Source of the DNA: Pocillopora verrucosa
Lineage: Eukaryota > Cnidaria > Anthozoa > Scleractinia > Pocilloporidae
Reading direction: 5' to 3'
Assembly: GCF_036669915.1 (NCBI RefSeq)
Contig: NC_089314.1
Location: forward strand, 25,760,220 to 25,824,219
Length of the DNA: 64,000 bases
The translations under genes and the position numbers were made by a program. Each line of letters starts with the position of its first letter. Position 1 is the first letter of the stretch. Below are positions 3 to 56,278 of the stretch, in pieces. The notes under the pieces are model-generated. The model was not told the DNA's origin. It searched no databases and saw only the letters and a program-made list of their open reading frames with translations.

Positions 3-416
3 CTATGTGACATCGCTGAAATGGAACGCTTCTCCGCCATGACCAAGGTCTTCTTTAAGCACAGTCAAGGAGCCATGGTGTTTTGGGGACCTCACAACCC
101 ATCGTCACTTGCTGGAGCATTGCAATGGCGGAGGAAGATCAGGGAGGATATATCGCTTCCGATTCCTTGCGTTCTTGTCACAGACAATGTGACAGACTCT
201 TGCTCGAGTTCAATAAACTGGATTGGGCCGGGGAAGATATTTGAGAGCGAGCTAGCGCTGGATCAGTTCTGTAAAGATCACAACTTTGAAAATCATTTTG
301 AGATCACGGCACGCGATTGGGTGTCCGGTGAAAAGAGTGTTTTTGGACAGGCTGTGAACTGTCTTCTTGACGGGATTTTGCAGAGCGAAAAGAAAGAAGA
401 ACAGTCTTGCGTGTAA
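3..416 (+). CDS. Rab32-like degenerate small GTPase, copy 1 (5' partial)
   Basis: The frame is open from base 3, upstream of the first in-window ATG (base 21), and reads LCDIAEMERFSAMTKVFF. This aligns with the Rab switch II region WDIAGQERF, so the N-terminal half lies outside the window. The visible 138 residues cover G3 through the C-terminal helix. The G3 glycine is glutamate (DIAE). The NKxD region reads VTDNV, followed by a family-specific WIGPGK stretch. The G5 region reads EITARDW and leads into SGEKSVFG. The protein ends QSCV, which is neither a CC, CXC nor CAAX prenylation signal. The family is closest by eye to Rab32/38. Whether it binds nucleotide is doubtful. It is followed on the same strand by two further copies. 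Confidence 0.8.
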   Translation, partial: LCDIAEMERFSAMTKVFFKHSQGAMVFWGPHNPSSLAGALQWRRKIREDISLPIPCVLVTDNVTDSCSSSINWIGPGKIFESELALDQFCKDHNFENHFEITARDWVSGEKSVFGQAVNCLLDGILQSEKKEEQSCV

Positions 417-1375
417 CGCAATTATTCAGCGACTGATGTCCTTCGCAGCCGATGTTAGGTTTTATCTCACAACGAACTCCGCGTTTCGTGTCGAGACTAA
501 GTAACGGCTACGAAAGAGACTGTTAATTAAACGTGTACCAGACTCAACTGCAAAGTTACGTGTTAAATGACTATGCATCAAGAATTTAGCATAAGAAGTT
601 TGTTTGTAGATATCGTTATAATTTACTAATTGGTGATTTTACGCTATTTTGTCACGTAACTCGCAAATACCGGTTTCCTCGGAATGTCACGCAACGTTTC
701 TTCCAAAGAACGGTTTCCAGTAGGAGATCAAGCTTGAACGTGTTCCAGGTGTTGTCACGCAACTTAGCAAAATAATTATAATTATGTTAAGCAATCAAAC
801 AAGTCAAATAATCAAGACCATTTGAAGTTAGAATGCATTGGAAAGGGGTGCTCAAAATGAGCAACGGGAGAATTTAATAACCGCGAGCGTTGATTTCACA
901 ATTTCGTCGAGTTTGCAATATAATTTGCTCTATGGGGATTTACCGCTGCTTGATTAGCAAGCCACTAGATAGAGGAGCTGAGAAAATAAAGAATGGAAAC
1001 AAAAACAGTCATACTAGAGGAATTTTTGTAACCGTGCCGTAACAGGCGATGTATTCTGTAAATCAACCCCTATTCACTTCTCGATCACTTTTACTCCCAG
1101 TTGGTAATAACCCCTACCCCCCTCTTCCACCCTTCCGACAAAACAAACAGAGGTAAACCAGAGACGTTCAGGTTTCTAACTGCAACTTTCATTGGAATAT
1201 TTAGACTATCCTCGCTCATTCATCCAAAAAACAATGTTCTATACCATCAGCGATCAATCTTCAGCTGGTGTTCAAGGGGAAACCGCTCTAAGCTGAGTTA
1301 CTTCTGTGAAGCCCTGAGAAAACACGGCGGTCTCAGAATCGAAGAAACCGGAAGTGTCGTTTCTGAACTGTGAAT
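417..1375. other. Intergenic spacer between Rab-like copies 1 and 2
   Basis: This AT-rich spacer has no convincing coding segment. The last 35 bases before the copy-2 ATG hold a GAAACCGGAAGT motif (1344-1355) that recurs upstream of copy 3, so the 3' part probably contains the copy-2 promoter or 5' UTR. Confidence 0.5.
1344..1355 (+). promoter_or_regulatory. ETS-like motif upstream of Rab-like copy 2
   Basis: GAAACCGGAAGT lies 20 bases before the ATG of copy 2. The identical 12-mer lies 51 bases before the ATG of copy 3. The core CCGGAAGT matches the consensus of ETS-family activators. It may be a shared promoter element or simply duplicated 5' sequence. Confidence 0.35.
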
Positions 1376-2125
1376 ATGCTGCAGTCAAACTCTCTGTCCA
1401 GTGTAGCTTCGAACTATGAATTGCCAGAGGAGGGCAACGAAAACTGTTTAAAGAGGCTGGGAAAAGACGTCGAGATGAAAACATTTACAACGAACGAAGA
1501 ATTTTTAGAACGCGAAATCGATAGCGATCGACTAGGAAACAAAATCGTGAAAATCCTATGTATCGGCGGAGTGGGAAATATGGGTGTTCTTATCAATGAT
1601 TACCTCCAAGTAACGCCTCCAGTTCGAGGACTTCGCCCTTCTGCTCTCTTCGTGGATCAGTATTTGAAGAGAATGAAATGGCTCAGAAATGAAGTAGAGA
1701 AACCGATCTTTATCAACCTGCGAATCTTGGAGATAGGTGAACTAGGACGTGTATCAAGCCTACGGAGGATTCTCTTTAAGGACTGCCATGGAGCGCTGGT
1801 TTTCTGGGATACACTAAGGCCTTCTTCGCTGAATGAAGCTGTAAAATTGAGGAAGATGGTAATGGAGGTTTGTCCGTCTGTTCCATGTGTATTTGTTACT
1901 GATAACTTAGGAAAAGAGCTATCACAATGGATTGGGGCTGGCAAGACATTTGAAAGTGAACTGGCATTGAATCAGTTTTGCCACAATCACGGCCTTGTGA
2001 GTCATTTCGAGATCGTTTCACGCGATTGGGTGTCCGGTGAAAAGAGCGTTTTTGGAAAAGCTGTGAACTGCCTTATGAAGGAAATCTTTCAGAGCGAGCA
2101 AACAGAGGAAGAGACCTCGATGTAA
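1376..2125 (+). CDS. Rab32-like degenerate small GTPase, copy 2
   Basis: A single open frame gives 249 residues from ATG 1376; an in-frame GTG lies two codons earlier, but the ATG is the likelier start. An N-terminal extension of about 55 residues contains NYELPEEGN, shared with copy 3. The P-loop is badly eroded (GGVGNMGVLI in place of GxxxxGK[ST]). Switch I reads ALFVDQYLK where Rab32 has TIGVDFALK. G3 reads LEIGELGRV, so both DxxG and the catalytic Gln context are lost. The G4 region is VTDNLG. The G5 region ends SRDWVSGEKSVFGKAV, almost identical to copy 1, including 26 identical bases at the DNA level. There is no C-terminal cysteine (ends EETSM). A non-catalytic Rab-fold protein is inferred. 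Confidence 0.82.
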   Translation: MLQSNSLSSVASNYELPEEGNENCLKRLGKDVEMKTFTTNEEFLEREIDSDRLGNKIVKILCIGGVGNMGVLINDYLQVTPPVRGLRPSALFVDQYLKRMKWLRNEVEKPIFINLRILEIGELGRVSSLRRILFKDCHGALVFWDTLRPSSLNEAVKLRKMVMEVCPSVPCVFVTDNLGKELSQWIGAGKTFESELALNQFCHNHGLVSHFEIVSRDWVSGEKSVFGKAVNCLMKEIFQSEQTEEETSM

Positions 2126-3350
2126 TGCAACTGACCGTTTTAGTGTGAAATGCGTACACCATGAACTATGAACCATTAATCATCGTAATGAGATCACGCG
2201 AATCAGAATACAATTCAATTTTTTTTGCAAATACTATTTATTGCCATGTCTGCCTTTTCATCAGCTCGGTATAGACTGAGGATGTTCCCTGTCTTCTACT
2301 TTTTGGTCATGCAGTACAAAAGCGGCCGTGGAAGGTCTAGCGAAAAAAACAAAAGGACTGTTAACAGCATGTAGACAAATGCGTCCGGCCGCTTTACCTG
2401 GCTTTTTGGAGAACCAGTTGTGAATAAATTCGCGTCATTTGAAAATCATAACAAATAATAATAGGAAGCAAGTGACGAAATTTTGAACCGTGGGGAAAAG
2501 TTTAAATCTTTATAACTAATAGGTGGGGTAATGGGGATGCTATGGGACGGGAGAGAGCCGGACAGGGTTGACGTCTTTATAATGGTGACTTTCTGGGAGT
2601 GAAAATTGTGTAGTGAATATTTAGGAGATGGCCTGAGTAAGAAGCTTAGGGACAATCAAAACATTGGCAAAAATAATCCAGGAATAATTTAGTCATTAAT
2701 TGAATTGATCGACCACTTAGATTAAAAATCTAGTGTTCGCTTCTCTGTTAAATGATCACCTTTCGTGGTACGGTACAGAGACAGGAGGCTGTACATTAAA
2801 CAAGAGGAAAAGATTTGAAATAACATCAACCCGGATACAGATTGCATGCCAAACAGTGAGAGCTTAGAAATTTTATGGGTCTGACATTCAACGAGCGAAT
2901 GCGCATTAGGCTATCAGCAAAAATGGAAACTACAACGCAGCGGGAGGGACAAAGTTCTTAAAACAGTTTTACGACTAACTTTGATTTTTACTTTTATTCT
3001 CCGCCTATAAATGTTAAATTTCTTCCAAGTCTTCCAATACCCCCCTCTTCCCCCCCCCCTCCCCCCTCTCCATCTTGAAACCACGGAACCATCCCCACCA
3101 TCCCCACCTATTACTAATGCGAGCTAACGTTATAAGCTCGCGATCGTTTATCCGACCGGCCATGTTTAATTTGGAGTTAGAGTGGACAATGGGGGTAAGA
3201 AGCGGGGGAGGGGCTCCCCTTCCCAGCTTATTTCTGACCGACGACCGCCCCCTTGGTACAAATTTCTTTCCCTCCTCAGCCTTCGGCTGCCATTAAAATT
3301 AAAGATATAGCGGCCATAATTTTCGATAAGAAAATACTGAACACTCGCGC

Positions 3351-3386
3351 GGGATCAGCGATACCTTAAAAGGGATCAGCGATACC
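3351..3386. repeat. Short direct repeat, two 15-base units
   Basis: The 15-mer GGGATCAGCGATACC occurs at 3351-3365 and again at 3372-3386, separated by six bases. It has no relation to the nearby genes that I can see. Confidence 0.7.
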
Positions 3387-3905
3387 GTCTAACCGCTTGT
3401 GAGTTCTGCGATTATTTTCCTCTACTGGGTGCCAATCCTTTCATTCGTATGCGATAAGAATCGATAATGACCTTCCAAAAGAGATTATAGACTGAATCTC
3501 TTCCCATCCAAGTGACCTTTCATAGTATCCCTTCTGTAACTCGGGTAAAGAATGGGACGCCATAGAGACACCACGAACAACAACATACAGTAGAACTGGG
3601 TTGAATGCGTGACAAGACATTGAGAGTTAAATTTAAAAATCGAGTTTGTTTGGTCATAAATTGAAAGAGCGAGCCTGGATAAGATTATAAGTTAAGGGAG
3701 AAAAAATTAATCCTAAGAGAAATAACATTCAGTTCCATAATTTCCCCATCTCCACCCCTCTTCTGAATTCTGCGATTAGCCATCCAGAAACTATCCCCAC
3801 CTCTCCGCGGATATGGCTGCGAGGGGAATGAATCTCGCCCCAGGTCTAATCGCGTCACCTTACCAAACATGACTATGGCGTTACACAACTATTTCCTTAT
3901 GAGTG

Positions 3906-3929
3906 CAACATGATCTCGAGATCATGTTG
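3906..3929. repeat. 24-base perfect palindrome
   Basis: Each half is CAACATGATCTC and its exact reverse complement, with no spacer and a central CTCGAG. It sits about 225 bases upstream of the copy-3 start codon. It could be a cruciform-prone site or a dimeric protein-binding site. Confidence 0.7.
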
Positions 3930-4090
3930 TATGAGTGGGATGCTACTGCCTACTGAAAGCCAAGACAGACAATCATTCCGTTGTTAGGCGTTTAAAATCC
4001 TAGTGGCGTCGTCAGAGATCAAAGAGAACGAGCATAGCAACCGAAAAGAGACCCTCAGAAAGCCATAAAGATATCCAAGTACAGCTGTAC

Positions 4091-4102
4091 GAAACCGGAA
4101 GT
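4091..4102 (+). promoter_or_regulatory. ETS-like motif upstream of Rab-like copy 3
   Basis: GAAACCGGAAGT, identical to the 12-mer upstream of copy 2, lies 51 bases before the copy-3 ATG. See the copy-2 motif at 1344. Confidence 0.35.
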
Positions 4103-4153
4103 TTTCTTCCTCACTCTTTCGGTGTTGACATTGAACTAAGATTTTTCTATACA

Positions 4154-4867
4154 ATGGCATCCAACTATGAATTGCCCGACGAGGTCAATGACACCCGATT
4201 GGAGAATCTAGGAAAGGAAGTAGAAATGGAAACGTTTAACTCGAACGTCGAACTAGAAAAACTTACGATCGAAAGCGATCGCCAGGGAGAAGAACTACTC
4301 GTAAAAATCGTATGTGTCGGTGGCTTCACTGGTGGAGTGGGTACCAAAGGCGTCTTCATAGATGATTACCTCGAAGTGTGGCCTCCTGTGCAAACGTATC
4401 GTTCTCCACTAATCGGAGTAAAATTTTATTTGAAAACAATCAGATGGCAACGAGGCGACACAGAGAAACCGATTTCTATCAAACTACAACTCTGGGAAAT
4501 TGCCGAACAGGAACGCTTTTCGAACATGTTAAAAATTTACTTCAGGGACTGTCTCGGAGCACTAGTTTTCTGGGGAACACAAAGGCCGTCGACGCTGAAT
4601 GAAGCTGTATTGTGGAGAGAAAAGGTCAAAGAATTTTGCCCATGTGCGCCATGTGTCCTTGTCACTGACAACGTAGGAAAGGAGCCACTGAAATGGATTG
4701 GGGGTGGGGAAACATTTAAGAGCGAAATTGCGTTCGATCGGTTCTGTGAGGAGCACGGATTTGTGGATCATTTCGAGATCAAGGCACGTGATTGGGAATC
4801 AGGGGAGAAGAGCATTTTTGGACGAGCTGTGACGCGTCTTCTCGATGAAATTTTTAAAAATCAGTGA
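4154..4867 (+). CDS. Rab32-like degenerate small GTPase, copy 3
   Basis: An intronless 237-residue ORF begins MASNYELPDE at ATG 4154. Residues 1-48 are an acidic N-terminal extension. The P-loop region (about 54-66) reads GGFTGGVGTKGV: it is one or more residues too long, and the lysine is followed by Gly rather than Ser/Thr. Switch I (about 87-93) reads LIGVKFYLK, so the Mg-binding Thr is Leu. G3 (114-119) reads WEIAEQE; glycine is replaced by glutamate but the Gln is kept. G4 reads TDNV (171-174). G5 reads EIKARDW (208-214), followed by SGEKSIFG. It ends FKNQ with no prenylation cysteine. The fold and the order of motifs fit Rab32/38. Loss of P-loop Ser/Thr and G3 Gly argues against normal GTP hydrolysis. 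Confidence 0.85.
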   Translation: MASNYELPDEVNDTRLENLGKEVEMETFNSNVELEKLTIESDRQGEELLVKIVCVGGFTGGVGTKGVFIDDYLEVWPPVQTYRSPLIGVKFYLKTIRWQRGDTEKPISIKLQLWEIAEQERFSNMLKIYFRDCLGALVFWGTQRPSTLNEAVLWREKVKEFCPCAPCVLVTDNVGKEPLKWIGGGETFKSEIAFDRFCEEHGFVDHFEIKARDWESGEKSIFGRAVTRLLDEIFKNQ

Positions 4868-6670: not shown

Positions 6671-9600
6671 CTACGTAGAGGGGGTTTTCATAACATAATC
6701 ACTGAGGGATGAAATGGGGTCGGATGACGAAGTGGGCGTGGTCATTCTGGTGACAGCGGGACTAGTGGTGTTGGTATCCTTAGGAGAGCCCGCGGACTGA
6801 GGACCTCCTCCTTGGGGATTGTCTTCGCCGGCGGCCTGAGCTTGCTGTCCACAGACGTGATGATGGTTCTCCCAATCTTTGTGCTGACAGAACGGGCCGC
6901 AGTACCTCGCCACATTGCATCCACTACATGTCTCCGTGGCCTTTCGCCCGCAATTCCAACAACTCTACGGGAAGAACAACCAATATCCCCATAAGAATGT
7001 GGACATCTTAACAAGAGGGCACGCAGATTGACACAAACACAACAAAACTTTGTTAAAGAAAACAAGAATGCATAGCATTATATCCCTACCTCACTTGAAT
7101 CACTCTGATGATTTGACATGGCTAAGGTGTCTTCAGTGGCCTGTCGGCGCGCCTCTAGCACGGCTTTCTCCATTTTGCCATGCGCACTAGCCACAGCTTC
7201 GTTAGCTTTCTCTTCCGCAGCACGGACAGCTTTCTGTAGTTCCACCACAGCTTGTCTCTTCACGTCACTTACGGCCTCTTCCGCCCGACGTTTGACCTCT
7301 GCTACGCGCTCCTCCGTTTGTTTTAGCGTTTTAGCCATTAGTTCCCCTAAACGAGTTAAAGATAAAGGTTTAACGAGAGATGAAATTTTCAGCCTATTGA
7401 CGAGTAGGCGTTTTCTTAACACCATACTGGACTTAGCTTGTCCACACGAAATGATAAAAAAAGAATTAAGCTCTACACCCACCTGCTCTCCTCTTAACTT
7501 CCGCTTCTGTTTCTTCGGCCGTTTTTCGTGCCCAGGCCAATAATTCTTCTCGATCCTGAGTGCATCGTTGTTGAAGCACTGCTACAGCTCGTTTTGTCTT
7601 GTCAACCATTCCTATTATGCACTGAAGCATCTAAGTACCACAAATATTTAATTGTTAAAAAAAATAAACAAATAATACACTGTAATAATAAAAAATGTCC
7701 TTCACTCATCAAATCCCGGAGGTGATTATCATGTAACTTCTCCCTATAATATCTATATATCATCCAGCAAACAGGTCATAAGAATACTCATACTTATCAG
7801 GTCAAAGGCATTTTCTTTATCTAACAAAAAATTATCCTGACTAATTTACTAGGAAATGTTTACCAGCCAGAGGAGAGAATTAACAATCAGATCTTGGGAG
7901 TTAAGGGTTAAAATGTGACTGCCCTTTGCATAGAAAGCATTAATTAGTCCTAATCCACTTGGTTACCATGCCTGCTACAACCAGGGATTAACTTGAAAAA
8001 TTTAGTTGCAGGAGAATACATTTAAGTAACAGGAGCATGTTCTATGGTCTCGAACAAAAAACAATTCAGTGCATGGATGACAAAGTCAATCTCCAATGCC
8101 CAATAAAAACCTTCTAGCAACCTTGGAAACTCAACCTACCGTGTCCACATGTTTCCAGTCATCCACTACTTCATGTTTGCTATCCAACAGAGCATCTGGC
8201 AAAGTGGGATCACCATCACGTGAACTGCCTGCTGTGAAATAACTAATGATTAATCATACCATCACACATAACTGAAACATCAAATCAAACAGTAAGAACA
8301 CTGAAGACTCTGAGATAATCACATGGTCTGTTTGCTTAAATGATTGGTAACATCACTCAAAAGATAAGAGGGAGTCAACCCTTTGCTACCAAGATCTCCC
8401 TGTTCCCTCTCCATACTGTCTGGCATTCATATTCCATAATTTTAGATCCACAAATTTTGTGTTCAGTGTAAGCAATTTTCTTCAGCTGATACTTTCCTTT
8501 CTTCTCATCACTTGATGGTTTGAAAAGGTTATGATATCATAACAAGACATTTCTTTTGGTAACTCATAGGGGTGAAAGGATTTAAGTTGTCAACTGTCTT
8601 TGCATGTACTTCTGGATGTTTGCTGTTCACAATATTGATTTAACAGAAACAAGAATACAACAAATACATAAGGCAAAATACTGTCTCCAAAATATTGTAA
8701 TTCAACTTTATTTGATTGATTTAATATCAATCATGAACTTCATTAACCCTTTAACTCCTATGAGTGACCATGACAGAATTTCCCTTAACAATATCAATGA
8801 CAGAATTTCCCCTGACAATATCACTAGAGTATACATGTAAAACAGGCAAGTGATGAGAATTAAAAAAATGTCAGTTAGGGAATTATTAGTTGATCCAATT
8901 TCAAATTCACCAAACTAACTTCAGAGGAAGTGTAGGCAGACAGTAAGAATTGCTAATGAGTTCTTGGAAGTGACAGGGTTATGTCATATCTGCATTTCTC
9001 TCTGACTGAGGATAAACAAGGCATATAATAAAGAAATTTTACATATTTTAACCGTTTATCTTAATAAATTCAGAGCATTAATTGTCATTCCATAATGCAA
9101 AGATTGATCTGTTTAGAGTAGCTTTTTGAATAGGTGAGAGAAGATTATTCACGATCTCTTAAATATTACCTTGCGGTATTGTGATGTCTTCCATTCTTAA
9201 CTGATTTGGTTTATTAAAACTGCTGCTGTTGCCTACCCATCAAAATACAAAGCTAGCTCAGTATCAATTAACCATGTAAAGTGATTCTTGTTCTATAACT
9301 GAGATAAAATTCAGTTTACCTGATTTTAAAGCTAAATCAAAATTCCTCGATTCAAAACAAAGCTGTTTAAAATATATATCTTCAGCAGAGATATCACAAC
9401 CAAAAAAGCATTTATTTTGAGGTGAAAGTGGAAAAAGTCATCACATACAAGCTACATTCAGTTTTATAAACGTACCCAAAAAGGGCCTCTTTGGGATAGG
9501 TTTCCCCAGTTCTGCCATCATTTGCTGAAATAAAAAGACTGAAAATTTCAAAACTGTGATAGCCACAGAATGTAGTCACCAAATAGGGAAAGGTGTTAAT

Positions 9601-11522: not shown

Positions 11523-12807
11523 CATTCAGTTCTTTCCTAGGCCCTCAGTTTACAAGTATAACTTAGGATCAACAAAATTATACACACAAAAAATTAAACA
11601 GTCATTATCTGGGCCACTCTATCCAAACCTTAGTTTCATACTGAAAAATTCACTTTGCTATTTGTAGTAACAAACACTCCTAAATAAGTTAAGCATTATA
11701 CTTATTACTGAGTTTGAAATATATGTTATAAACCAATTTTACCAGAAACTAAATGTTCTTGATCCCAATGCCAAAAAAGAAATAGGAGTTCCATCAACAA
11801 AAATATACTCATTTCAAAAGAAATGTCAAACTTTTAAGTACAGGAAATAATATTAGCCAATTTCCAAGCAAAAGGTAATAAAATACTGCCTTCTTTTCAC
11901 ATGCCGCCACTTAAACTGAGTAAAAGTCCTCATGAAAATCAACCATAAATTCTTATCAACCATGTTAATCAAGGACAGACCAAATAGCAAAATTTCAAGC
12001 TGAAAGGTGAAGATTAAAATCTCAACAATATTGTTTGATTGACCACCATGTTGTCAAGGCTAAAATCATAACAAATTTAAGGTAGATGATGCACAGAACT
12101 GATATTTAGTTCTTGGCAATGAAAAAGTTGTGGTACATGTATGCACCACAAAAATTATTGTGGAAACAAAGTAAAGCTTGGGCAAGAGGGAGCACCATGA
12201 CTCAGTTCAGCACTAACTGCATGAATGTCTTCCCTAGTATACCAAGCTATACATGCTCTGATTTAATTAATGTAAACAGAGTTCAGCATACCTTTAGAAA
12301 TGGTATAACAAATGGTCTGAGAGGAAAATTTGTAGCTTCTTGAAGCTGTGCATGAAATTCTTCTATGGATATTGTTGAGTTCTGAAATAAAAATAGCCAA
12401 AAGTTAACATCATGTCTCTGAACACAAACACCTATCATCCCAGGAGTACCAAAATGTGTTACAAATTATTTCCTCACCACAAGGTTCATAACAAGTCCTC
12501 GCACTCTTTCTCCAATTTCAGGAGAGATATCCGAACCAAACTGTTGCAGAGTTGTCAGGAATCGCTTCAACTTGCTAAGTTGTCGAGCACCACAGGCAGG
12601 AGGCAGCTGGGTTACACTGTTTCCTATACTGCTAGGAGACACAGGGCCTGTGGGGCTGGTATGTGCACCATTGACAGCAGGTGAAGTGGAATTATTAAGA
12701 GACCTTACATCAGCCACAACTGGAACTGAAGTAGGATTTGCATTTGGTGATGACACTGGAGGTCCCTGAGGAGGATGAGCTGCTGGGTCTGTTGGTGAAT
12801 CTGGCAT
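6671..12807 (-). CDS. RUNX1T1: RUNX1T1/ETO/MTG (nervy) transcriptional co-repressor, ten coding exons
   Basis: Coding exons (minus strand): 12478-12807, 12292-12381, 10226-10416, 9784-9820, 9476-9524, 9170-9232, 8140-8231, 7483-7630, 7090-7346, 6671-6964. All junctions have GT-AG signals and matching phases, giving 516 residues (vertebrate members about 570-600). The start MPDSPTDP matches the family start MPDSPVD. NHR1/TAFH covers about residues 75-170 ([15 protein letters not shown], then [20 protein letters not shown]). NHR2, the tetramer helix, covers about 270-335 ([21 protein letters not shown]). The NHR3 coiled coil covers about 345-415 ([16 protein letters not shown]). The MYND zinc finger covers about 420-460 ([17 protein letters not shown], then [13 protein letters not shown]) with its Cys/His ligands present. 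Family members scaffold histone deacetylases and NCoR on DNA-bound factors in the nucleus. Exon 1 stays open upstream to an acceptor at 12825-12826, so further 5' exons are likely. Confidence 0.93.
7725..7907. repeat. MITE-like repeat, diverged copy, TTAA-flanked at one end
   Basis: The right end reads AGATCTTGGGAGTTAAGGG followed by TTAA (7908-7911), matching the right terminus of the better copy at 61159-61356. The interior (CTTCTCCCTATAATATC, CAGGTCATAAGAATA) matches segments near 37660 and 49480. The left terminus is not clear. It lies in an intron of the MTG-family gene. Confidence 0.5.
8743..8984. repeat. piggyBac-like MITE copy
   Basis: It begins TTAACCCTTTAACTCC and continues TGAGTGACCATGACAGAATT, as in the copies near 41883, 50468 (inverted) and 61159. 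The right end decays to GACAGGGTTA. A duplicated internal segment (ATGACAGAATTTCCC appears twice) is seen in this copy. It is located in an intron. Confidence 0.6.
10499..11280. mobile_element. Non-autonomous DNA transposon with terminal inverted repeats and TA target duplication
   Basis: The left end CCTTATTTACTTGTGTATAA is matched in inverse by the right end (reverse complement CCGTATTTACTCACGCATAA). Both ends are flanked by TA (10497-10498 and 11281-11282). The GTGTATAAGTC motif repeats internally near both termini. At 782 bases with no open reading frame, it looks like a MITE of the Tc1/mariner-pogo type. It lies in an intron of the MTG-family gene. Confidence 0.65.
11283..11522. repeat. 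Coral-type palindromic repeat, diverged copy 1
   Basis: This segment has the inner pair ATTATCAACTGA and CTCAGTTGATAATACC, the GGCCACTGTAAA and TTTACAGTGGCC arms, and a right-hand tail (CCCACTGCTACAGCACCACAG). The same elements are found in the better copies near 37.9 and 38.5 kb. The central hammerhead-like core is decayed here. Confidence 0.6.
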
Positions 12808-12824
12808 GCTTGCCTCTCTTAAAT

Positions 12825-15060
12825 CTACAACATAACAAACATTATTTGATCTGTCTGCTTTTGACCACATATTAGTATAAGGAGAGGCTACATGTACATG
12901 TCCACCTTTAAAAAGGGATGCTTACTCTTAGAGGAATTTTTACATGAGTAACCAAAATGATGCGTGATTACATTGGTTCGGATTGACAGTACTATGCTTT
13001 GTGATTGCTTGAGAATACTTGAGCCACATTCTTAACCAATTCAGTGCAAAACCAACCATGCCTCCAAAACATACAGTTGCCCTTGGTCAAGGTAACAAAA
13101 ATGTACTTATTTTGAGTTTTTATTGGCTTGTTGTACAGTTTTCACTCTGTGGTCCAAAAATAAACAGTGTGAACCACAAAACATTCATTTAAAAACTGTA
13201 TCACTTTTTCCAAATAATAAAGATTGATATTCCAAACATAGCATACTATCATAGTGTACAAACTAACTTTTTCTATAGAGGATACATATTCTAACAACCT
13301 ACCAATTTTTTTGGAAATTGTTGTCAGGTACCATTTAGATGGCTTAAATGGTCTTATACTCAGACTGCTAAGATAAAATAATATTAGAACTTGGGAATAA
13401 AAAATATGTATTAAACTCCTTGAGCCATTTTCACATCAAACAGACTAGGTATTTAATATTTACATCTCTACATTGCTGTAAACTGGTCAGTAATTCTAAA
13501 TCCTCTGTTGTTCTGTCATGTTTTTTTTTTTTAATTTGTTGACCAATTTACGATATCCAATACATTTAAAATGTTCACCTGTATTACAATATAGTCGCGA
13601 TATGAAACACAATATGAAAACAATAAGTCATAAAACAAAATATGACATAACAGTTTCCCTGCTGAATTGAGTAATAACAAATCATGATAGCTATTAAACA
13701 TACAATATATAATTCTGACAAAGATCGACATTCCACTCAACCAACAGTCAATGAGTGAAAAAATATGCAACCTCATTAAGTTGACATGCATGTTGTTAGT
13801 AATACAGACTACAATTGACCGAGAACAATCAACAGTTGTGCTTGGTTGAACATTTAACTTCAATGGATAAGAGCATATATTGGTATGGTCTTAAGTTTAT
13901 GCGTATGTTCAAAATGTTTCGGAAACAAAGTAATTTGCATTCAAACGATTGGTAAAGAAGAACTCTTGTCCAAACTTGACAACACAATTCTTAGCATTAA
14001 GCCACTCGGATATATAGCTAAAAACAATCATTGGGTAATAGTTTTCTGATTCTTCATCTGTCGCTTTTAATTTCACATTTCAGAGCTATTATGAAAATCC
14101 TTAATTATAAACGAGTTCTATAACGCCTTGTTTATCAAGCGAGTTCAATCTTAAATTATCGTTAGCCTCGAACAAAATTTCAGAGACACAAAAGATCGCA
14201 TCAATGGTAGAGTCACGAAGATGACCGATTTCTTCTTCAAAGGCACAGACAAACGAAGTAAAGTATTATAAAGTCTTCATGAATAACCTTGGAAATACGC
14301 ATAACTCTCTTGATAGGATTTTAATGACACAACCAGAATTACTAAAGATCTATTAAGAAACATACTGTGATTCACGGAGTTAAACTTCGAGCATGGAACT
14401 TGTGGCCATCGAAAGACACAAAATACTGTTACCGTCTCATAACCAGGTAACTGAATTCTCATTACATAGGACGAATATATAAGATGAGTAAATTGTTTTA
14501 ATTTTCTCCTTAAAATTGAGCGTCACGACCAACAGGGTTTACAACAAAAAAGTTACAGCGGGCGAGCGAAATAGCTTAATATCATATCGCGACAGAGGTA
14601 GCGACACAAGGGATTTATAAAACGAGGTTTTGCGCGCTTGTAGGGCGAGAACCTTTGCGCAAATCACGATTACAGCAAACAGGAATAAGAAATTTCAAAT
14701 AAGAAATTACAAGAGTTTCCAGGACATACATTGCATTATGAGATAAGCATTATAAATCGTTGTAACAAATGTTGGTAACGCTGTGTCGCTCCTCTCACCG
14801 AAAACATAAATAAATAAAAACTCATGGCTCCGTCTAAGCAACACAAGCGTAAAAAGAAATTTGATTTGCATCCCGATGTACTCACGTCTTCGAAAAGTTT
14901 CAATTCCCTTTTAAACAAATCTTAAGAGCTATGAACGATAACCAAGCGTATTCTGGAGTCCTCGTCTTAATCCATAGCTAAACAAAACAAAAGAAGACGA
15001 AGCAAAATCGGACGCCATATAAAAGAACTCCGTCATTACACTACTCAAGGTGGCGCTTTG
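12825..15060. other. Region upstream of the first recognised MTG-family exon
   Basis: No coding exon is recognised. The acceptor at 12825-12826 implies at least one further 5' exon, coding or not, on the minus strand in or beyond this interval. The GC-richer stretch near 14,540-15,060 is a possible promoter area. Both statements are inference. Confidence 0.35.
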
Positions 15061-42200: not shown

Positions 42201-44650
42201 TCCTGACTGTATTACACAACCTTGTAAATTAGACAGGAGAATTTGGTGTCACATCAAGATGATACCCTCTAACACTTGAGCATATCTATTTTCATCACCT
42301 CTTTACACTATAACTTATCAAATTGTGAGAAGTTACATGTTAAGTTACATTTGTGGTAATTAAGGAAAAAATTCCTAAGCAGTTATATGGTAAATCTGTG
42401 TAACTATCAGCAATAAACATAAGAACCTTTTTCTAAATCCACCATAATGATTGCCACAATTTTTTCTTCCCAACTACAATGATCACCACAGGGCTATAAT
42501 AATAATGTAATCTGACCATTGAGATTTCTCTAAACTGGGACTGAAACATGACATTTTTCATCAATCAAGAAACTGCAGTTTATTATGAAATAAATTTCAA
42601 AATTGTACCATATCCCTCCACAGAAAAGAAGAACCCTCTGAAATGTGCCCTGCGTCCAACATGTAGCTTCATAGTTCAGTTGGTAACTGTGAGGATCATG
42701 GCTTTACTTAATCAAGAATCTCCTGCACTTAAGACTTGACAAGTTATAAAGAAACATCTGGCTGCTGGGTAAGCAATTATTACATTGAGCTTTAGCTCGC
42801 TGAAACCATACAACAGAGCAAACAAACTATGATGATTTAATATCAGTGTATATCAATACTCAGAACCAGAAGTGACAAGAAAACATGCAAGCATGATCAT
42901 GAATATCAGTTTTAGCCTCTATAAGAAAGTTCCTTGGTAAGGAACATGACAAAGGTTGTAATGATTCTCCCTTTTATAAATTTAATTGTCAGAAAGTCTC
43001 TGAATAGGTCATCAACACTTCTAAATAATCCAGACACAATCTTAATTATTACTGCTAAGAGTCAACAATTGCTTTCAAATACCTTTGTAGTGTAAACATT
43101 TTATGAATTTATACATTAGGTGCAGAGCTATCTTGAAAAATTTGATGAAATTGCAAACGATTATCACAAATTAAAATAGAGCAGTTTCAAATTGAGAATG
43201 TGTTCATTCAAAATTGTAATCTTTGATACCTAATGGGTGTATAAATAACACGACACCGACCAAAAAAACTGAAACAAAAAGTGTTATTAAAATGCTATAA
43301 CTAAACATGTTAACCTTTCGCTCCTTAATATGAATGAAAAATTAAATTTATGTGGAGACAGAGGCTTATTCTAATTATTGTTATTATTCTTTTTCCTCTG
43401 GCCAGGTGCTGATTCCGGCGGTGATCAAAATTCTGACACAAGATTAAATATCATTCGATATTGTAAATGTAATTCTCAACTAAAGTAATTTCAAGAATTA
43501 TTTTAAGCATGACTTGGCAATTGAAACTTCATACTGGCCAATCAAATACTATACATTTTCCACACAATTACTCAGTAAAATTCGAATGCTCACCTCCTAC
43601 TGAGAAGGAGCAGTAAAACTGAGTTAAGCTGAAAATTTGAAGTGTGTGAATTCATTACACCGCATTTTAATGCACATCAAAAGAGGTAAATATATGCGGA
43701 CACGAGCAACGTGCTCTTCGAATGTCCTTCATAATTTGACTTAGAATGAAACTATTTCCCATGGATGGACATAGGAGAATCGCAAAGACTACCATCATTA
43801 ATTGGACACCGAAAAATTCTTGAAGCCGCTTCGAAATCAAACAAAATTGTACAATTTCCTGCTACATGTTGAAAGCCGCTATCAACTTGACTCTGGAACA
43901 GAGAGGCATGTTATTAGATGAAACATGTGAAGACGAACCTTATTCATTAAGATTAACGCAAGGTAAAAAACCGCTAGGAAATGAGCACGCAATGTTCGAG
44001 GAAAGCTTTTTATCCCACGGAGATGATAGTAATAATGATAAAAAATACTCACCTACTGCTGGAGCATCGTACGAATCTCCCAGTAGAACTTCGGGGGCGG
44101 AATACGCTAACGATCCACACGAAGTATCAAGCTTTTGACCGGGAGAGAACTTATTCGAAAGACCAAAATCCGTTAGCTTAGCAACATCCAAACTCTTAAA
44201 GAATATCACATTTTCAAGCTTTAAATCCCGATGTACAATGTGCAGTTTGTGGCAATAGTCAATGGCGAGAACAATTTGTTGAAAATAATGGCGAGCTTTG
44301 TCTTCGGAGAGGCCTTGTTCGTGGTTCATGATATATTCATACATATCCCCACCATCGCCCAGTTCCTGAACAAGGTACAGTTTGGTTTGCGTATCGATGA
44401 CTTCGTACAATCGGACCACATTTGGATGTTGGACGAGTTTCATGCATCGAACCTCCTTGACGAGATGTGCTCTAGAGATCTCATCGAGTTTTGTTTTATC
44501 GATCACTTTCACAGCAACTCGTTCTCCCGTAAAAACGTGTCTCGCAACTTTGACAACAGCAAAGTGACCGCATCCTAGCGTTTCTTGCAAGTCGTATAAT
44601 CCAGCGATTTGTCCATCTTTCAAGGTTGAATTGAAGGAGTGTTTCGCCAT
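36251..44650 (-). CDS. SNRK: SNRK, SNF1/AMPK-related Ser/Thr kinase, four coding exons
   Basis: Exons (minus strand): 44053-44650, 41438-41579, 39604-39813, 36251-37526. Phases are 1, 2, 2, giving 741 residues (human about 765). The kinase domain spans residues about 15-270: glycine loop [17 protein letters not shown] lysine, catalytic HRDLKLEN (usual HRDLKPEN), DFG in [10 protein letters not shown], activation segment [17 protein letters not shown], and [14 protein letters not shown]. The C-terminal tail keeps SNRK signatures: [12 protein letters not shown], a Ser-rich [11 protein letters not shown], and a terminal SNCCQIF resembling the family's CC-x-x end. After the kinase, [20 protein letters not shown] matches the start of the SNRK UBA-like segment, but its remaining helices were not found. 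Activation by LKB1 at the T-loop Thr is known for the family. Confidence 0.93.
37625..37745. repeat. MITE-like repeat fragment
   Basis: This fragment (CCTTATAATATCAGCTATGAATC, then CAGGTCACAAGAATA) matches segments near 7740 and 49480. It lies in SNRK intron 3. Termini are not resolved. Confidence 0.45.
37866..38128. repeat. Coral-type palindromic repeat, copy 2, with hammerhead-like cores
   Basis: Arms carry TTATCAACTGAGTTGACAA and ATATCAGTTCTGTTGACAAC, and GCCACC(A)TAAAGAGTTT with its inverse. The centre holds two inverted GCTCTGACGAAGG cores (37981-38015 minus, 38028-38060 plus). The left tail has GACTGTGGTGCTGCGTCGG. It is inserted in SNRK intron 3. Confidence 0.65.
38464..38690. repeat. 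Coral-type palindromic repeat, copy 3
   Basis: It has the same tail (GGGTAAGTTTCAAAGAAACC), the paired TATCAACTGAGTTGATAATG and its inverse at about 38641-38662, and a hammerhead-like core on the minus strand (38575-38609). A single core is present. It lies 340 bases from copy 2 in the same intron. Confidence 0.7.
38575..38609 (-). ncRNA. Hammerhead-ribozyme-like core
   Basis: Read on the minus strand the order is GCT, CTGACGA, a short stem GGGT-TAAC-GCTC, GAAAC, GTC, AGC. This is the order of the hammerhead core (CUGANGA, stem II, GAAA, GUC) with a 3-bp stem I. An extra A follows CTGACGA, and stem III would have only two base pairs with no loop, so a monomer would be weak. Hammerheads are known in Penelope-like retroelements of many animals. 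Activity is not shown. Confidence 0.3.
38719..39065 (+). CDS. Possible two-exon gene fragment inside SNRK intron 3, opposite strand
   Basis: Exon 38719-38812 (acceptor CTTGTTCTCAG, donor AATA|GTAAGT) reads [20 protein letters not shown]. It joins in phase with 38947-39065 (acceptor CTGTCTTTGCAG), which reads [17 protein letters not shown] and then a hydrophobic tail to a TAG stop. Together they encode about 70 residues. A start exon was not secured; a small ORF at 38344 with a possible donor exists. I recognise no family. It may be a nested gene, a captured exon pair or chance. Confidence 0.3.
39090..39420. repeat. Imperfect CTGA/CTAC tetranucleotide array
   Basis: About 330 bases are built from degenerate CTGACTGACTAC and CTAACTGACTG units, with larger repeated blocks (for example GACTACCTAGC appears several times). 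It is a simple-sequence minisatellite in SNRK intron 3. Confidence 0.8.
39463..39570 (+). other. Exon-like open segment on the strand opposite SNRK
   Basis: It is bounded by TTCCCTTTCTAG and ACTG|GTAAGT and open throughout in one frame ([19 protein letters not shown], then a mildly hydrophobic run). Its entry phase does not match the end of the exons at 38719-39065. Not recognised. Confidence 0.2.
41883..42290. repeat. piggyBac-like MITE pieces
   Basis: It starts TTAACCCTTTAACCCCCATG and continues GTGACCAAGACAGAATTTC, as in other copies. From about 42185 a second piece resembles the family in inverse orientation (GAGTAATTCTCCTTCCTGAC, then GGTGTCACATC). Two nested or adjacent decayed copies are the simplest reading. 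It lies in SNRK intron 1. Confidence 0.5.
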
Positions 44651-52187: not shown

Positions 52188-52940
52188 CTATCTAGAAGAA
52201 TGATCTCTGCCTTTTGTGTCATACTTCAGTTTCCAATCGCCCCAGATTGTCACGCCATTTCGAGACAAATCAGTTATTTCTTGTAGAATTCTATCCACAG
52301 CTTTGGCGATCACCCGCTTGTAATCGTCAATCTTGCGTGATGGAAGTTCAAACCATGTGACATATCCATAGTGTGAACAGTACTTGTCCATTTCCGCCTT
52401 CCTTTTGACCATTTCTTCACTTCCTGGAAAGGAACCTTCGTTTGCATTATTATTTATCGCGATCAAAACGATTGGAACCTTAAAGCCGTTTCGTTCATAG
52501 CTAGGATTTGCTGCTTGTATGAGCTCGAAATTTTCAAGGGCGATGGAAAGCGTTGACGGCTTCTCTACATCATAGAACAGCAACGCGCCATCACATGATT
52601 TGCACAATTTGCGATTACCACAGTGAAAACGAAATCTGTCGATGAGCGAAAGCTCCCAATACTGGATCTTCAGAGTGTAAGAATGTGAATTTGACGAATT
52701 TCTCCACACTATCTCCTCCCGATGTAACCACGGGGTACAGAATGGGATTATTTTTGAAGACATAAGATTCCTTTCTTTCCACTTTGGGTCGCCTAAGATT
52801 ATTATTTTCAGATGAAGCTGATCTCCATTTTCCAGAATGTTTTTCTTGAACGATTTCAACTGTATTTCTTCGCCAAGTAAGTTCAGGACTGCTTTGTTCT
52901 CTTCTTCCGGTTTCTCGTAGGACACAACACAAGTGGTCAC
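52188..52940 (-). CDS. Rab32-like degenerate small GTPase, copy 4, no ATG at the expected start
   Basis: The open frame gives about 250 residues. The expected N-terminus aligns with copies 2 and 3 (VVSYEKPEEEN against NYELPEEGN), but the codon at the expected start is GTG and no ATG lies between it and the upstream in-frame stop. The first in-frame ATG is about 60 codons in. The P-loop is gone (ILGDPKWKERNLMSS), G3 reads YWELSLIDRFRF, and G4 reads IAINNNAN. The G5-like segment reads ELPSRKIDDYKR. The C-terminus extends past the usual helix (GVTIWGDWKLKYD) and has no prenylation Cys. It is the most divergent copy. Either an upstream exon supplies the start, GTG is used, or this is a pseudogene. 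Confidence 0.65.
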   Translation of the reverse strand: MTTCVVSYEKPEEENKAVLNLLGEEIQLKSFKKNILENGDQLHLKIIILGDPKWKERNLMSSKIIPFCTPWLHREEIVWRNSSNSHSYTLKIQYWELSLIDRFRFHCGNRKLCKSCDGALLFYDVEKPSTLSIALENFELIQAANPSYERNGFKVPIVLIAINNNANEGSFPGSEEMVKRKAEMDKYCSHYGYVTWFELPSRKIDDYKRVIAKAVDRILQEITDLSRNGVTIWGDWKLKYDTKGRDHSSR

Positions 52941-55546: not shown

Positions 55547-56278
55547 TCAGGGCTTTCGGAGATTACGTTGTTTGAAAATATTTTGAACAAGACAGTCTAC
55601 TGCTCTTGTCATCACGCCGGTATAACCATCTTCTTCTCTTGACACGAGCTGAAACCAACCAACGAATCCATTCCTGGCGCAAAACTCATCCAGCAGAACT
55701 TTGTTTTCGATTAATTTCCCGGGGCCGATCCAATCAACAGGTTTGCCCCGTTTGGACGTTGGAATGTTTTCTATAATAAGAACCAGAGGTATATTGGCGT
55801 CTTTTGGGTTCGCTTCTTTAATCTTTTCGCCCCACTTTAAAACACTGCCAAGAGGAGATGGGCTCTTTGGTCCCCAGAACACCAATGCGCCGACGCAGTT
55901 CCTACAAAACACACTTGTCATCTTGAGAAAGCGTTCATGTTCGGCGACATCCCAAAATTGCAGTTTCACAGTGAAGTCTTGATTCGTTGTCTGGTCGCTC
56001 CATGTAATAAAATTTAAGTAAAAATCGACTCCGATCGTCGGCTTGTGATAAAAGCTTAGCGGCCGACGATGTATATAATCCGACACAAAGCCTCCCTTCT
56101 TTCCAAAGCCCGTGTAGTCTCCAACACACATTATCTTGAAAGTGAAATCCGTCTCTCTAGATTTCATTTCTTGAAAAATCTCTTCGTCTCTCCGCACAAT
56201 CGCAGCATCGCTGGCCATTCCCGAGTCCGTTTCTGTGGCCATAAAACTTTCACTTCGCTGAAGCTCAGTATCCGACAT
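55547..56278 (-). CDS. Rab32-like small GTPase, copy 5, least degenerate
   Basis: The ORF gives 243 residues from ATG 56278 (MSDTELQRSES); a longer in-frame extension lacks an ATG. A Ser/Met-rich N-terminal extension (about 50 residues) precedes the fold. P-loop GDYTGFGKKGGF keeps GD and a lysine but has one residue too many and no Ser/Thr after the lysine. Switch I is intact by eye (KPTIGVDFYLNFITW, against TIGVDFALK in Rab32). G3 is WDVAEHERF, with Asp kept, Gly to Glu and Gln to His. G4 is IENIP. The G5 region is LVSREEDGY. WIGPGK is shared with copy 1. It ends RNLRKP with no cysteine. It is probably nearest to the ancestral copy. Confidence 0.82.
   Translation of the reverse strand: MSDTELQRSESFMATETDSGMASDAAIVRRDEEIFQEMKSRETDFTFKIMCVGDYTGFGKKGGFVSDYIHRRPLSFYHKPTIGVDFYLNFITWSDQTTNQDFTVKLQFWDVAEHERFLKMTSVFCRNCVGALVFWGPKSPSPLGSVLKWGEKIKEANPKDANIPLVLIIENIPTSKRGKPVDWIGPGKLIENKVLLDEFCARNGFVGWFQLVSREEDGYTGVMTRAVDCLVQNIFKQRNLRKP

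Follow-up and report, generated by a model that had tools for sequence, protein, structure and literature searches.

A cluster of Rab32/38-like genes with eroded GTP-binding motifs, two of which retain Rab32-type effector-contact positions

C-terminal prenylation cysteines are a hallmark of Rab proteins. In the Rab32/38 subfamily, the sequence FALK at the end of switch I is described as a further hallmark, two histidines in switch II are given as the mark of Rab32LO (Rab32B), and the genes of several animals are reported to carry two introns at conserved positions (PMC4728774). Positions through which Rab32 contacts the effectors VARP or LRMDA have also been described (PMC4059916, PMC12491506). 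The window analyzed here, that is, the whole 64 kb stretch C3:25760220-25824219, contains five uninterrupted Rab32-like open frames, copies 1-3 on the plus strand and copies 4-5 on the minus strand. Copies 3 and 4 are the reverse of an ordinary Rab, in that the nucleotide switch is gone and the Rab32-type effector face is kept, which is not the case in the other copies.

Copy 1 (3..416, +) is an open reading frame of 137 codons that encodes the C-terminal part of a Rab32-like pseudo-GTPase; its 5' end is lost at the window edge, the genome sequence upstream is N, and its start is not visible. Copy 2 (1376..2125, +) is an uninterrupted pseudo-GTPase frame of 249 codons with its ATG at 1376, the P-loop GGVGNM, and the motifs EIGE and DNLG, and it is 56% identical to copy 3 (4154..4867, +; 237 codons). 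Copy 4 (55547..56278, -) has 243 codons and, like copy 3, is an uninterrupted Rab32-like pseudo-GTPase frame. Copy 5 (52188..52940, -) is the most diverged. It opens with GTG, has a deleted P-loop, and has its first in-frame methionine at residue 60 with no in-frame ATG before it; this copy is the exception to watch for decay and is possibly either decaying or provided with a 5' exon not seen here. A tblastn search of the five proteins against the window returned only these five places and two chance-level matches (E 0.6). The genome (353 Mb, 52 contigs) was searched with copy 3 at E <= 0.001, and seven places were found, namely the five window copies, a weak exon of an ordinary Rab, and a sixth copy (P0006; C3:25828250-25828885, -; 223 codons) located 4 kb past the window end. 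A preliminary description of this DNA had placed three tandem same-strand genes at 3-4867 and two more copies at 52-56 kb. That arrangement holds, and as far as the copy 3 search sees, the family appears to form a single cluster of six copies in about 69 kb.

The nearest relative by sequence is the Rab32/38 subfamily rather than other Rabs. When copies 3 and 4 were searched singly against PDB, Rab38 and Rab32 ranked first, and the E values to Rab38 (8e-23 for copy 4, the better of the two, and 1.8e-18 for copy 3) exclude chance likeness. A six-copy profile gave the same order among PDB chains, with Rab38 at 6e-29 (104 bits) and Rab32 at 4e-26 (95 bits), followed further down by Rab7L1 at 4e-17 (65.5 bits) and the next chain at 5.5e-14 (55 bits). 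An unrooted tree of 12 rows, from which the partial copy 1 was omitted and in which Rab7L1 was not included, grouped copies 2-6 together (100/99) and gave a separate group (100/98) of five ordinary Rabs from this genome. Rab32/38 (87/81) lay between the two groups, and copy 5 formed the longest branch. Against the Pfam Ras family (PF00071, cut-off 21.6 bits), copies 1, 3 and 4 scored above the threshold (24.1, 41.2 and 40 bits), and copies 2 (14.3 bits), 5 (12.4 bits) and 6 fell below it; these last three are joined to the family through copies 3 and 4, not through their Ras score. For copies 3 and 4, AlphaFold predicts the Rab fold, with a mean predicted local distance difference test score of 64 and 66 and a predicted template modeling score of 0.69 and 0.68, respectively. 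The origin from Rab32 proposed earlier is thus upheld by the profile E values and the tree, and the copies did not fall outside the Rab clade.

The motifs that bind guanosine triphosphate (GTP) are eroded throughout the family. In the alignment to Rab38, the P-loop end GKT reads GNM in copy 2, GTK in copy 3, GKK in copy 4, and GKE in copy 6 and is deleted in copy 5, so that GK[S/T] is lost in all five readable copies; the P-loop also varies in length among copies. The P-loop lysine is retained in copy 4 and, in the alignment used, in copy 6, and the switch I threonine is retained in these two copies only. The DxxG glycine (copy 1 has DIAE) and NKxD are lost in six of six copies, and SAK has become TAR, VSR, KAR, VSR, PSR, and KAR in copies 1 to 6. 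None of the six ends in CC, CxC, or CCxx, although copy 1 ends in -SCV, with a cysteine next to last. Both the erosion and the missing prenylation end had been noted before, the latter now being limited to the usual motifs. The FALK hallmark has changed as well, being replaced by FYLK in copy 3, FYLN in copy 4, and QYLK in copy 2; copies 5 and 6 are further off, and this part of copy 1 is not visible. Switch II of copy 4 has one histidine (AEHERF), as set against the published description of Rab32LO rather than its sequence. A small-GTPase fold combined with the loss of nucleotide-binding motifs makes the pseudo-GTPase class the best-supported identity, as judged from sequence. The earlier statement that the family matches no described group therefore needs refining, because its sequence leads to the Rab32/38 subfamily and its motif loss to the pseudo-GTPases.

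The effector face was scored at 11 positions described for Rab32 (V60, D61, F62, L64, 69, W80, M91, R93, V94, Y95, and K97, Rab32 numbering), of which position 69 is L in the text of the source paper yet W in the aligned Rab38 sequence. Identity to Rab38 was 9/11 in copy 4 and 8/11 in copy 3, followed by 5/11 in copy 2, 3/11 in copy 5, and 2/11 in copy 6; copy 1 matched at two of its six visible positions. Five ordinary Rabs of the genome matched at 6, 6, 6, 5, and 4 of the 11 positions and kept 13-14 of 14 nucleotide-motif positions, compared with 4/14 in copy 3 and 6/14 in copy 4 (5/14 in a second alignment). The face was better conserved than the rest of the domain in copy 3 (one-sided Fisher test, 0.0024) and copy 4 (0.00056), whereas the other four copies gave 0.08-0.68 and the five control Rabs 0.04-0.27. 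Face against nucleotide positions was borderline (Fisher test, 0.036 for copy 3 and 0.058 for copy 4). That copies 3 and 4 keep the Rab32 effector-contact positions despite their lost nucleotide motifs is the new observation here. The decoy role suggested in the preliminary description gains support for these two copies and none for the others.

Frame maintenance was assessed by pairwise maximum-likelihood codon estimates of the ratio of nonsynonymous to synonymous rates (dN/dS, omega). Among seven pairs tried, three were saturated. Omega was 0.28 for copies 2-3, 0.22 for copies 1-2, and 0.20 for copies 1-3, the comparisons with copy 1 covering 125-133 codons. A value of 1 was rejected in each case (twice the log-likelihood difference 42.7, 31.7, and 34.2, respectively), and the dN/dS near 1 that would have marked dead copies did not occur. 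In a neutral simulation of copy 3, which ignores insertions and deletions, the frame remained free of stops in 32/4000 runs at 0.2 changes per site, 2/4000 at 0.45, and 0/4000 at 1.0. The low omega and the rarity of stop-free neutral runs argue against dead copies as a class, and purifying selection is supported as an average between copies.

The copies also share blocks outside the G motifs. A segment of the type YExP...LGKDVEMxTF is common to the N-termini of copies 2, 3, 5, and 6, and a WIGxG[K/E] block, absent from Rab38, replaces the loop after G4 in every copy except copy 5. The SGEKSxFGxAV block is found in copies 1-3 and nowhere outside them, as had been stated. Other shared blocks listed earlier are less uniform. 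IAEQERF and LIGVKFYLK are exact in copy 3 only (the former reads IAEMERF in copy 1 and IGELGRV in copy 2), and copies 1 and 3 match EIxARDW exactly, copy 2 reading EIVSRDW. The N-terminal extension stands for copies 2 and 3, with a related form in copies 5 and 6; that of copy 4 looks different. The C-terminus of copy 5, about 16-20 residues from VTIWGDWK on, was unseen in the other copies.

Copies 2-6 are open across the whole domain, and the two conserved Rab32/38 introns are absent, so that a retrocopy of a Rab32/38-type gene that was later duplicated in place is the likely origin; the 5' untranslated regions may still carry introns. A gene of the same genome (L076 561-746 and 1115-1195, +), presumably Rab7L1/Rab29-like, has introns within the domain. 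The sequence CCGGAAGT, which we take to be an ETS-type site, occurs three times in the 64 kb on both strands, and two occurrences lie just upstream of family members: 1348..1355 (+), at a distance of 28 bases from the ATG of copy 2, and 4095..4102 (+), 59 bases from that of copy 3. The 300 bases upstream of each of copies 4, 5, and 6 do not contain it. A canonical Rab32 was not recognized among the 17 scored candidates of the copy 4 query, in a search not aimed at it, nor in 52 regions (two overlapping) around part of the Ras-family matches, where the Rab7L1-like gene lies; neither result shows its absence.

From these data, a soluble effector sponge is tentatively proposed as the role of copies 3 and 4, with copy 1 as a possible third, at somewhat less than even chances. 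A processed, intron-free Rab32/38-type copy would have been duplicated in place and given rise to a soluble pseudo-GTPase family, whose proteins would fold without GTP and remain in the cytosol. Copies 3, 4, and perhaps 1 may bind VARP- or LRMDA-type effectors through the kept switch and interswitch face and titrate them off membrane-bound Rab32, acting as a constitutive sponge outside the control of guanine nucleotide exchange factors, GTPase-activating proteins (GAP), and guanine nucleotide dissociation inhibitors. Copies 2, 5, and 6, in which much of the face is gone, may have taken other partners or be decaying. Nearly as likely as effector titration is a neofunctionalized scaffold or adaptor, a possible role in which the Rab fold would serve as a rigid body and the WIGxG[K/E] block, the N-terminal segment, and SGEKSxFGxAV as the new surface. 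The distribution of these blocks is consistent with it, and it would also account for copies 2, 5, and 6; however, it offers no candidate partner and leaves the Rab32-type face of copies 3 and 4 unexplained.

The remaining explanations are improbable. Soluble Rab32 look-alikes could absorb pathogen or symbiont enzymes that attack Rab32, since switch I of the Rab32 subfamily is described as a bacterial protease target (PMC7779776, PMC5752668), copies 3 and 4 retain IGV at the switch I end, and these diverging tandem copies lie near TRIM-like B-box/filamin genes. An average omega well under 1, with no sign of positive selection, and the absence of IGV from copies 2, 5, and 6 make such a decoy unlikely. 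About equally doubtful is the decay of functionless retrocopies, to which the missing ATG and P-loop deletion of copy 5 and the sub-threshold Ras scores of copies 2, 5, and 6 would point; six open frames at deep divergence, the low omega among copies 1-3, and the promoter-like site common to copies 2 and 3 speak against it. Least probable is that the copies are still functional GTPases of an atypical kind with a different mode of nucleotide binding, a possibility discussed for amoebic EhRabX3 and EhRabX10. EhRabX3 lacks G2 and is termed a functionally active hydrolase (PMC8514894), and copies 4 and 6 keep the P-loop lysine and switch I threonine mentioned above, but the family-wide loss of NKxD and of the DxxG glycine and the unequal P-loop lengths oppose this explanation.

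If effector titration is correct, Rab-derived pseudo-GTPases that retain the face without the switch would provide a simple natural means of inhibiting a lysosome-related trafficking route. In cnidarians, Rab32 has been discussed in connection with the maintenance of symbionts and with bleaching under heat (PMC6643889, PMC7563517), so that in a symbiotic cnidarian host the family would be a directly testable candidate regulator. A bolder and rather unlikely proposal is that a multicopy, constitutively nucleotide-free family of Rab32 mimics sets the extent of phagosome maturation by titrating Rab32 effectors, for example around algal symbionts, possibly in a lineage with reduced or missing canonical Rab32/38.

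Several other genes were observed nearby. Two similar open B-box and filamin-repeat (TRIM-like) genes lie upstream of the cluster (L016 3081-4412, -; L018 6469-7746, -). Within the window, a partial MYND finger just under the cut-off and a TAFH/NHR1 exon (6674-6913 and 12469-12870, -) presumably belong to an MTG8/CBFA2T-type gene, and a protein kinase exon at 43943-44650 (-; Pkinase 5e-50) is taken to be SNRK-like.

Compared with known systems, the family resembles Rab32 and Rab38 (Rab supergroup III) in sequence, fold, the FALK-like stretch (FYLK, FYLN), an FC..HGFV.WFE-type block, and the ERF..M switch II of copies 1, 3, and 4. It differs from them in its eroded G motifs, lack of a usual prenylation end, intron-free domain, WIGxG insertion, and N-terminal extension. 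EhRabX10 and EhRabX3 (PMC8514894) and the pseudoGTPase domains of p190RhoGAP (PMC5593906) are likewise described as small-GTPase folds with broken G motifs, whereas the present family is animal, Rab32-derived, clustered, multicopy, and stand-alone. RabTitan (PMC3425129), compared by description, is also Rab-like without C-terminal cysteines, but it is reported to be only very distant Rab kin, in contrast to the specific Rab32 likeness of the present family. The nearest precedent for the proposed logic is RagB-long (PMC9481464), described as a paralogue that binds GTP poorly and titrates a shared partner; the interface taken up by RagB-long, which is an isoform, is that of a GAP, whereas the present family would occupy effectors.
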